This document shows positions 29,840 to 37,488 of a DNA stretch of 64,000 nucleotides, one piece after another. This stretch comes from Gemella massiliensis (GTDB taxonomy: Bacteria > Bacillota > Bacilli > Staphylococcales > Gemellaceae), in assembly GCF_900120125.1 (NCBI RefSeq), contig NZ_LT635546.1, positions 533,344 through 597,343 of the forward strand. The letters run 5' to 3'. The notes beneath the pieces are model-generated. The model ran no database searches. It saw only the letters and a program-made list of their open reading frames with translations, and was not told the origin of the DNA. The translations under genes and the position numbers were made by a program. The stretch's first letter is position 1, and every line of letters begins with the position of its first letter.

Positions 29840-31241
29840 ATGAATAATTTTAACACAAAAACAAAAGAAATAAAAGAGGGAGAATTCATTAAAAACCTAC
29901 TACAAATAAAAGATAAAAATATAACTATTGAGAAAACACATAACGAAACTATAAAAAATAATCAAAAGTACTTTGTATTCAAAGGTACCTTAACATATAA
30001 ACCCAAGAAGTGTGAATGCTGTGGTTGTCTTAATAAAGGTTATACTGTAGTTAAAAACGGCTTTAATGAACTTACTAGAATTAATCTATTAAAAATATCA
30101 GGTATCCCTGCTTATTTGGAACTAAGAAAGCAACGTTTCAAGTGTAAAACTTGTAATAAAAAATTTGTAGCTACTACTTCTTTTGTAGATAAATACTGTA
30201 GTATTTCTAAAAATGTTAAGTTTTCTATAATGAGTGATTTAGCTGATACTTTATCTTTTAAACAAATAGCCAAAATGAATAATGTATCGGTTAATACTGT
30301 TATAAGAACTCTTTATAAATGTAAATCCCATGTAGACATTCTTAACTATAATACCTTACCTGAGTATTTATGCTTTGATGAGTTAAAGTTTACTAAAGAT
30401 AGTAAAAATGGTATGAGTTTTATTTTTTTAGATGCTTTAACTCATGAGATTATTGATATAGTTGATGGTAGAACTGAGTATATTTTAAATAATTATTTTT
30501 CCAGATTTTCTAAAGAGGCTAGAAGTAATGTTAAGGCTATTTGTATTGATATTTATACTCCTTATATGAAGTTGATTAGAAATAAGTTTCCTAATGCTGA
30601 AATTGTTATAGATAGGTTTCATATTATTCAAAATGTTAATAGAGAACTTTATTCAAAATGTTAATAGAGAACTTAATAGAACTAGAGTTAAGCTAATGAA
30701 TATTTACAAAAAACAAAAAGGTATTAATTATACTCTTTTAAAAAATAATTGGAAGTTAATATTAGAAGATGAAAGTAATGTTACTCATGGTAGGTTTTTC
30801 TTTAATAGGAGTTTTAGGAGTTTAGTTACTAGACGTGATATTTTAGATTATTTATTAGGATTAGATTGTATATTTAAGGCTAGCTATGAGAGAGTTCAGG
30901 ATATTAGATATGCAATAAGGTATAGAAATGAGTTGGAGTTTAAAGAATTAATTGAAAAATCTACTATCGATTTATCTGATGGTGTTAGTAAGGCTATTAA
31001 TACTATGAGAAAACATAAAGAGTATATGCTTAATAGTGTTAGGTATTCTATTTCTAATGGTTCTTTGGAGGGTATTAATAATAAGATAAAGGTTTTAAAG
31101 AGAGTTTCTTATGGTTATAATAGCTTTTATAACTTTAGATTACGCATTTTAGTTGTTTCTAGGTTATTTGTTTCTGAGTATAAAAATAATATTTCTTTTA
31201 AGGGCGTTTTGAAAAATGCCAAGCAACACTGCATTGCTTAG
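29840..31241 (+). pseudogene. ISL3-family transposase, disrupted by a 25-bp tandem duplication
   Basis: Two overlapping frames give the complete transposase: 29840-30664 (zinc-finger-like CECCGC and CKTCNKKF at the N-terminus, HTH around SFKQIAKMNNVSVNTVIR, DDE first Asp in LCFDELKF, second in CIDIYTPYM) and 30633-31241 (C-terminal part with the Glu region NGSLEGINNKIKVLKR). The break is a tandem repeat of ATTCAAAATGTTAATAGAG... at 30626-30650 and 30651-30675, differing at one base. Removing one 25-bp unit restores FHIIQNVNRELNRTR. So this copy encodes a non-functional transposase. Confidence 0.9.
30626..30675 (+). repeat. 25-bp tandem duplication in the transposase gene
   Basis: Units 30626-30650 and 30651-30675 are identical at 24 of 25 positions. 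Because 25 is not a multiple of three, the duplication shifts the reading frame. It is the sole visible defect in the element. Confidence 0.92.
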
Positions 31242-34947: not shown

Positions 34948-35151
34948 TTACTCTGAAATTACTTGATCAAGGGTTGATACTATTCTTGCCCGACCTTTTA
35001 TTTTGAAATTTTTAATATTATCAAAAATATTCAAAATAATTACCTCGCCTTTATTTAAAATCTCCAAAGATTCTTCATTGTTTATTTTCTTGGTAATAAC
35101 TTTAACATTATCCACTTCGGCTCTTATTATTATATAATCAGCTTGTTTCAT
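34948..35151 (-). CDS. mtrB: TRAP-like RNA-binding attenuation protein
   Basis: 67 residues, aligned by eye to B. subtilis TRAP (75 residues): the NKGEVII strand, FKIKGRARI and the preceding ADYIIIRAEVDNVKVI. TRAP forms an 11-mer ring that binds (G/U)AG repeats when loaded with tryptophan. The RNA-binding triad appears retained as Lys34, Lys50 and Lys52 (for Lys37, Lys56, Arg58). The loop that binds tryptophan is 3 residues shorter and lacks the Gly/Thr-rich sequence, so tryptophan binding is doubtful. It follows folE (mtrA) by 12 bp, the exact mtrAB arrangement of Bacillus. GGGTGA precedes the ATG. Confidence 0.82.
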   Translation of the reverse strand: MKQADYIIIRAEVDNVKVITKKINNEESLEILNKGEVIILNIFDNIKNFKIKGRARIVSTLDQVISE

Positions 35152-35163
35152 ATTTTCACCCTA

Positions 35164-35724
35164 TTACAGTTTAATTTTATATTGAATATCTTTTACTAAA
35201 TTGTTATCTTCTAAAAATACCCCTGTTTTTTTACTGGTTACCGTCTTAGAACCTATTTTTTTTATTCCCCTCATAGCCATACACATATGCTCCGCTTCTA
35301 TAACAACATAGACACCTTTAGGGTGTAGTTGTTCTTCCATTGCATTTACTATCATGAGGGTCATATCCTCTTGAATTTGCAAACGACGACTTGCACTTTC
35401 AACAAGACGTGCTAATTTACTAAGTCCTGTTATTTTTCTATTTTTAGGAACATATGCTATATGACATACTCCATAAAATGGAAGCATATGGTGTTCACAT
35501 AGTGAATAAAATTGAATATCTTTCACTAATATAGGTTCATCGTTATCTGATTCGAAAAATGTATTAATTTCCTCTTTGGGATCTACATTCGTCTTTGATA
35601 ACAATTCTTCATACATTTTTACACAACGTTTTGGTGTATCCATAAGTCCCTTTCTTGTAGGATCTTCTCCAAAGTTTTCTAATAAAGTTTTTATAAGTTC
35701 CATTGACTGTTCTTTATTCTTCAA
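35164..35724 (-). CDS. folE: GTP cyclohydrolase I
   Basis: First enzyme of folate synthesis, 186 residues. Zinc ligands are in SLCEHHMLPF (Cys, His) and AEHMCMAMRG (Cys); TRKGLMDTPKRC, YVPKNRKITGLSKLARLVE and QIQEDMT are family blocks. I chose the TTG at 35724: GGAGG ends 6 bp upstream, while the in-frame TTG at 35730 abuts that site. It is first in the folE-mtrB pair, as mtrA-mtrB in Bacillus. Confidence 0.95.
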   Translation of the reverse strand: MKNKEQSMELIKTLLENFGEDPTRKGLMDTPKRCVKMYEELLSKTNVDPKEEINTFFESDNDEPILVKDIQFYSLCEHHMLPFYGVCHIAYVPKNRKITGLSKLARLVESASRRLQIQEDMTLMIVNAMEEQLHPKGVYVVIEAEHMCMAMRGIKKIGSKTVTSKKTGVFLEDNNLVKDIQYKIKL

Positions 35725-35833
35725 AACCAACCTCCAAATTTTTTATGATAACACTATTTTACCACAAAAACGACTAATTCAATAGAGAAATATTTTCTGT
35801 TCTTAAACCAGAAAGTTGCTAATTTGACAAAAT

Positions 35834-35869
35834 AAAAAGCCTAAAATACAAACTATCTTAGGCCTTTTT
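35834..35869 (-). terminator. Terminator of hup
   Basis: AAAAAGGCCTAA / TTTAGGCTTTTTATTTT on the minus strand, a strong hairpin with U-tract 13 bp after the hup stop codon. Confidence 0.85.
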
Positions 35870-35881
35870 ATTTATTTCCTA

Positions 35882-36154
35882 TTATTTTACTGCATCTTTA
35901 AGTGCTTTACCAGCTTTGAATGCAGGTACTTTACTAGCTGCAATTTCAATTACTTCATTAGTTTGTGGGTTACGACCTTTACGAGCAGCTCTTTCTCTTA
36001 CTTCAAAGTTACCAAATCCAATAATTTGAATTTTTTCACCTTTAGCTAGAGTTTCTTCAACTGTTTCTACGAATGCTTCGATAGCTGCAGTTGCTTGTTT
36101 TTTTTGTAGTCCTGATTTCTCAGCTACTTTTGAAATTAATTCTGATTTATTCAT
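35882..36154 (-). CDS. hup: DNA-binding protein HU
   Basis: 90-residue nucleoid protein. Typical features: [44 protein letters not shown] (the DNA-binding arm with its conserved Pro), and the final [17 protein letters not shown] precedes the ATG. Its own promoter (36205-36233) and a GAAA-tetraloop hairpin in the leader suggest a highly expressed single-gene unit. Confidence 0.97.
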
Positions 36155-36354: not shown

Positions 36355-37365
36355 TTATTCAAATCTATTTAATTCTTCACTAGCTACATTTTTCATCAAA
36401 TTTTTAGCACAATCATTTATTGACAAATCTTCATACAATACTTTATAAATATTTTCTGTTATAGGCATATAAACATTATATTTTTTTGCAAGTTGATAGC
36501 AAACTTTTGTAGTTCTAACTCCTTCTGCCACCATATCTAATTTAGCAACTGCTTCTTCTAATGTATATCCCTTACCAATTAAATAACCACAATTATAATT
36601 TCTTGAATGTTTTGAAGTACACGTTACAACTAAATCTCCGATACCGCCAAGTCCTAAGAAAGTCATCTGTTTTGCACCTAGTTTTGTCCCAAGACGTGTT
36701 ATTTCTATTAATCCGCGCGTAAGTAAAGCGGCCTTAGCATTATCTCCTAATTTCATTCCGTCTATTATTCCACAACCAACTGCAATAATATTTTTTAAAG
36801 CACCACCCACTTCTACACCGATAATATCTTTATTGACATAGATTCTAAAATATTTATTATGAAAAATTTTCTGAGCTAATTTATTTAATTTATCATTTTT
36901 AGAAGCTATAGCCACAACGGTAGGATTTCTTAAAACTAATTCTTCCGCGTGTGACGGTCCGCTTAAAACTCCGACACCTTTTAATAAATTACTATCTATC
37001 TCATCTTCTATTACTTCTGACATACGTTTATTAGTTTCCATCTCCAACCCTTTTGAAACATGAATAATATACTTTGGAATATCTAAATAAACATTTATTT
37101 TTTTCATTGTCTCTCTCATTGCTTTTGTTGGAACTGCTATTACTAATACTTCACCAAACTTTACCGCTTCTTCAAGATTACTGGTAGCGATAACATTTTC
37201 AGGTAACTTTATATTTTTTAAATATCGTTTATTAGTGTGTTCAGTATTTATTTCATCCCTTGTTTTCTCATTTCTCGAATACAGTCGAAGTTCGTGTCCG
37301 TTATCAACTATCGCCTGTGACAATGCTGTTCCCCAGCTTCCAGAACCTATTACTGATATTTTCAT
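36355..37365 (-). CDS. gpsA: Glycerol-3-phosphate dehydrogenase [NAD(P)+]
   Basis: Makes sn-glycerol 3-phosphate for phospholipids. 336 residues from the ATG at 37365, chosen because GTGAGGA lies 7 bp upstream; a TTG further upstream has no site. Motifs: dinucleotide loop VIGSGSWGTALSQAI, HVSKGLEMETNKRM, GVLSGPSHAEELV, catalytic Lys in GVEVGGALKNIIAVGCGI, and FLGLGGIGDLVVTCTSKHSRN. der lies further along the same strand as in Bacillus (der-gpsA-hup neighbourhood), though interrupted here. Confidence 0.95.
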   Translation of the reverse strand: MKISVIGSGSWGTALSQAIVDNGHELRLYSRNEKTRDEINTEHTNKRYLKNIKLPENVIATSNLEEAVKFGEVLVIAVPTKAMRETMKKINVYLDIPKYIIHVSKGLEMETNKRMSEVIEDEIDSNLLKGVGVLSGPSHAEELVLRNPTVVAIASKNDKLNKLAQKIFHNKYFRIYVNKDIIGVEVGGALKNIIAVGCGIIDGMKLGDNAKAALLTRGLIEITRLGTKLGAKQMTFLGLGGIGDLVVTCTSKHSRNYNCGYLIGKGYTLEEAVAKLDMVAEGVRTTKVCYQLAKKYNVYMPITENIYKVLYEDLSINDCAKNLMKNVASEELNRFE

Positions 37366-37488
37366 ATTATTTTCCTCACTAATTTTATTCAATAACTTTT
37401 ATATTAAATTTATTATATCAGAAAAAATGAAATTAATCACTAACTAAATATGGTTATATAATAGGGAAAAAGTTTTTCACTTTTTAGT

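Follow-up and report, generated by a model that had tools for sequence, protein, structure and literature searches.

A divergent TRAP orthologue of Gemellaceae with replaced tryptophan contacts and few remaining RNA contacts

TRAP is a ring-shaped RNA-binding regulator of 11 or 12 subunits that shuts down the tryptophan genes in Bacillus. Here, we describe a divergent TRAP (MtrB) orthologue encoded in a 64,000-nucleotide stretch of Gemella massiliensis DNA (contig NZ_LT635546.1, positions 533,344 to 597,343; hereafter the window). Its open reading frame (ORF) occupies 34948..35151 on the minus strand, running from an ATG at 35151 to a stop at 34948, and encodes 67 aa. The start lies 12 nt from the stop of folE (mtrA, 35164..35730, minus strand; PF01227, 229.9 bits), the gene for GTP cyclohydrolase I, which itself lies downstream of the HU gene hbs (35882..36154, minus strand). 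Upstream of hbs is gpsA (36355-37392), named from its sequence. A terminator-like hairpin between hbs and folE (35834..35868, minus strand) suggests that folE and the TRAP gene are probably co-transcribed as a unit of their own. The order gpsA-hbs-folE-TRAP is found in 15/15 Gemellaceae genomes, with the gene downstream of TRAP differing by species; we take the B. subtilis counterpart to be hbs-mtrA-mtrB. A preliminary description of the window had proposed a TRAP homologue behind folE in mtrA-mtrB order, and both the gene order and the homology were borne out.

The 67-aa ORF is a genuine TRAP/MtrB orthologue, as established by profile, predicted fold and synteny. It scores 32.1 bits against PF02081 (TrpBP/TRAP; curated cut-off, 21.3), and TRAP chains in the PDB match it by sequence with E-values down to 2.9e-5. 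The protein is identical to the G. bergeri copy and shares 85–88% identity with four other Gemella records. Its predicted monomer (predicted local distance difference test score, pLDDT, 88.8; 84.5 when given Gemellaceae sequences only) adopts the seven-stranded TRAP fold; the top structure matches of the predicted models were all TRAP (template modelling score up to 0.84), with a Z-score of 8.7 to TRAP versus 6.0 for the best unrelated chain. Every one of the 15 Gemellaceae genomes carries one copy over the PF02081 cut-off, compared with 0/142 other Staphylococcales, and the gene is vertically inherited within the family. In a sample of 399 Bacilli genomes, TRAP was found in 273, this genome counted; E-values ranged from 6e-8 to 3e-5 in Gemellaceae and were at most 4e-24 in all others. 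Gemellaceae copies are 24–43% identical to canonical TRAPs. Identity across the two groups is 34% for TRAP, versus 85% within the canonical group, and 52% for FolE, versus 80%, which is only partial evidence that TRAP has evolved faster than the adjacent gene, as FolE has diverged too. Pairwise ratios of nonsynonymous to synonymous substitution rates (dN/dS) were 0.00–0.33 in unsaturated pairs and near zero among G. haemolysans-like genomes, and the 11 distinct Gemellaceae sequences share 26 invariant alignment columns. The gene is under purifying selection and is therefore not decaying. Viral contigs yielded no relative, and none of the papers listed in a literature search dealt with TRAP in Gemella.

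We next compare the ligand-binding residues, using TRAP numbering and an alignment of the 15 Gemellaceae copies with 22 canonical TRAPs, which are the best-scoring ones and hence a biased sample. In TRAP, the hydrogen bonds to bound tryptophan are made by the BC loop (residues 25–32) and the DE loop (47–52) (PMC3506605), and both loops are replaced in 15/15 Gemellaceae. Canonical TRAP binds L-tryptophan with a Kd of 2.8–6.9 µM (PMC3435397). Between the VI strand and KGE there are 14 residues in the Gemella protein versus 17 in B. subtilis, as initially noted; this shortened stretch (codons 20–33; 35053..35094, minus strand) replaces the BC loop, canonically GLTRGxDTRFHH, by a three-residue deletion together with substitutions in all 15 copies. 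At T25, G27, D29 and T30, which like Q47, T49 and T52 are invariant in 22/22 canonical TRAPs, Gemellaceae carry K, N, E and E; one copy has T at T30, where an extra deletion makes the alignment uncertain. In the DE loop, NIFDNI (codons 41–46; 35014..35031, minus strand) takes the place of Q47-F-T-E-H-T52: position 47 is Asn and position 52 Ile in 15/15, versus Gln and Thr in 22/22, and position 49, Thr in canonical TRAPs, is variable. The Gly/Thr-rich loop and the pocket Thr/Gln residues of the following strand, both suspected missing in the preliminary description, are indeed gone. A T49A/T52A mutant of A. halodurans TRAP (PDB 9be8) shows that these two threonines have been singled out by others. 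Altogether, positions that are 22/22 canonical and replaced in Gemellaceae are G23, L24, T25, R26, G27, D29, T30, F32, H33, H34, K37, D39 (which survives in one copy), Q47, F48, T49, T52, S53, A54 and R58. Against the equivalog model for tryptophan-activated TRAP, NF009724, the protein reaches 30.1 bits, far below the cut-off of 117. A profile built from Gemellaceae detected TRAP in roughly 60 out of 398 Bacillota genomes, with far weaker scores than its own members; in the 11 best of these the GLTRG...EKLD loop is kept (11/11), and some show conservative changes, for example D29E, H33N and T52S/V-type. Among the Bacillota TRAPs sampled, degenerate copies are confined to Gemellaceae.

The RNA-contact residues of TRAP are F32, E36, K37, D39, K56 and R58 (PMC3184956 Table 3; roles in PMC4854314), and only E36 and K56 persist in Gemellaceae. 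F32 lies within the deletion. Codons 30–31, Glu-Ile (35059..35064, minus strand), align with E36, which is E in 14 copies and D in one, and with K37, which is Ile in 15/15. Position 39 is mostly Asn. Codons 50–52, Lys-Ile-Lys (34996..35004, minus strand), align with K56, which is Lys in 15/15, and with R58, which is Lys here and Q, K, I, V or S across the family. In this alignment, the triad K37/K56/R58 is not conserved. The intact triad of Lys34, Lys50 and Lys52 read into this protein earlier must accordingly be revised: Lys34 aligns with TRAP Lys40, the Lys37 position being Ile31; Lys50 does correspond to Lys56; and Lys52 sits at the Arg58 position, where relatives do not keep it.

The genome-wide search for leader arrays of (G/U)AG triplets, proposed together with that assignment, used the five-triplet pattern KAG-N2-KAG-N2/3-KAG-N2/3-KAG-N2-KAG and returned no match in this genome, although divergent sites could escape it. 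Within the window, KAG triplets form chains of at most three. Across the 15 Gemellaceae genomes the pattern gave three isolated matches, each located within a reading frame or at its end and none common to several genomes, compared with matches in 29/32 genomes with canonical TRAP. As a positive control, counted from coordinates, 15/32 of the latter have an array on the TRAP contig at a distance of 7–22 kb from the gene, roughly the position of the trp operon in Bacillus, and in genomes G398 and G414 arrays directly adjoin or precede trpB homologues. The reversed-pattern control is not independent for KAG arrays, since GAG reads identically backwards. An AG-only array pattern gave six matches versus six in its reversed control, nearly all within reading frames, including the single match in this genome. 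In these searches, both (G/U)AG and AG arrays occur in Gemellaceae at chance level only.

The tryptophan genes of Gemella appear to be controlled by another element. The window was described as holding no trp genes. In our analysis, trpB scored over its family cut-off in five Gemella genomes, not including this one or several relatives; Gemella species with and without such a trpB have the same TRAP changes. Upstream of these trpB genes lie the attenuator-like Rfam trpB motif RF04312 and leader peptides, for example MKQTTTLNSWQNWRR. In this genome, an RF04312 match of 43.8 bits (C6:174107-174210; L068 1501-1604), below the gathering score, precedes a TrpX-type tryptophan transporter gene, with the leader peptide MRLYQVDVLQLNIRWQSH. 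The TrpX match itself falls below its equivalog cut-off, the query ORF being a fragment of a gene that reads in two frames. This TrpX-like substrate-binding gene (L068 381-1389) comprises two overlapping ORFs in different frames, which may be due to a genuine frameshift or to a mistake in the sequence. Every Gemellaceae instance of RF04312 that we inspected, and the one strong match outside the family (L127), has a short upstream leader ORF that contains one or two tryptophan codons and ends in WQ(N/S)WRR, WQWRR or RWQSH. The authors of the motif left the possibility of ribosome-mediated attenuation open (PMC11109978). The trpX and trpB leaders are consistent with such attenuation, and this orphan riboswitch candidate may instead function as a leader-peptide tryptophan attenuator. 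The window also contains, at 29840-31241, a pair of overlapping ORFs that lie in different frames and resemble a single transposase split by a frame change.

The loop deletion, the pocket changes in 15/15 and the different control element on the tryptophan genes make a loss of tryptophan sensing well supported at the level of sequence. The earlier proposal of a TRAP ring that still binds RNA and senses another ligand, or none, is upheld in this respect; its RNA-binding part is weakened by the survival of only two of six contacts and by this genome's lack of (G/U)AG arrays, although the protein may bind RNA in a different way. New regulation is plausible. We put at about even the chances that this is a repurposed TRAP ring that is no longer gated by tryptophan, has lost the canonical recognition of (G/U)AG and serves another target. 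The protein would still form a ring, would not be switched by tryptophan, and would act constitutively or under a different gate. Its target would most likely be an RNA with a different sequence preference, which we favor, at an evenly balanced probability, because Glu36 and Lys56 of the base-binding site are retained; the main alternative, a protein partner with FolE as the obvious candidate, seems appreciably less probable. Several points weigh against this interpretation. The case for RNA as the target is built on those two residues, which may instead serve a structural role. Because E36 has the potential to hydrogen-bond with both K56 and the RNA base (PMC4854314), retention of the pair does not on its own prove RNA binding. 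The pattern search is blind to more widely spaced sites and to sites built on a different triplet. Moreover, conservation within Gemellaceae is not significantly higher at the pocket and RNA positions than elsewhere in the protein, and hence gives no positive signal of special constraint on a new site.

A possible but clearly less likely explanation is a ring that no longer binds RNA and acts by contacting a protein such as the FolE multimer, whose partner or regulator it could be. It would account for the loss of K37 and R58, the variability of K40 and E42, the change at D39 and the lack of five-triplet arrays in this genome, and for folE adjacency being kept in 15/15 while the downstream gene varies. 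However, this adjacency is ancestral, as in the Bacillus order, and is therefore poor evidence for an interaction; Glu36 and Lys56 are retained, and we know of no TRAP–FolE complex. The linkage to folE also led us to consider a pterin or GTP-related ligand; that the ring senses such a new small molecule, or binds FolE, and so regulates the folate pathway appears rather unlikely. Still more doubtful is a tryptophan-independent TRAP whose altered pocket locks the RNA-binding state, so that near-canonical RNA is bound constitutively: the retained Glu36 and Lys56 would suit it, but Lys37 and Arg58 are lost, and the arrays are at chance level, the only AG-array match here lying in a reading frame. 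We consider it very improbable that a normal, tryptophan-activated TRAP has simply drifted while still binding tryptophan and (G/U)AG RNA; fold and synteny are preserved and the family hidden Markov model scores over its cut-off, yet the tryptophan-loop residues and most RNA contacts, which are invariant in the 22 canonical TRAPs and recognizable in 11 further Bacillota, are replaced in 15/15 Gemellaceae, no target array occurs in this genome, and the tryptophan genes carry leader-peptide elements. A relic in decay that has survived by chance since the trp operon was lost, as the lack of trpB over cut-off here and in several relatives might suggest, is the least probable reading and already contradicted by selection, the gene being intact in 15/15 with dN/dS well below 1, even in small genomes of 1.1–1.3 Mb, its changes being the same with or without trpB, and strong TRAPs persisting in some other genomes that lack trpB over cut-off (G197, G217 and G503).

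Across the Bacillota TRAPs sampled, the contact residues hardly vary. Gemellaceae have kept the gene in its genomic position and the fold of its product, yet swapped the ligand contacts and most RNA contacts, which makes them a natural experiment on functional change in a ligand-gated RNA-binding ring; their proteins should not be annotated as tryptophan attenuators. The RF04312 motif occurs in the same genomes as the Gemellaceae TRAP, ahead of tryptophan genes (trpX, trpB), and it differs from TRAP in being a cis-acting RNA that follows a leader peptide with tryptophan codons, without an array of TRAP sites. With Bacillus TRAP/MtrB (PF02081, NF009724), the Gemellaceae protein has in common the fold, the hbs-folE gene order, the length class and the residues Glu36, Lys40 (13/15), Gly41, Lys56 and Gly59. 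It differs in a BC loop that is three residues shorter and replaced, in the replacement of Gln47, Thr49 and Thr52, in the loss of Phe32, Lys37 and Arg58, and in a score below the NF009724 cut-off.
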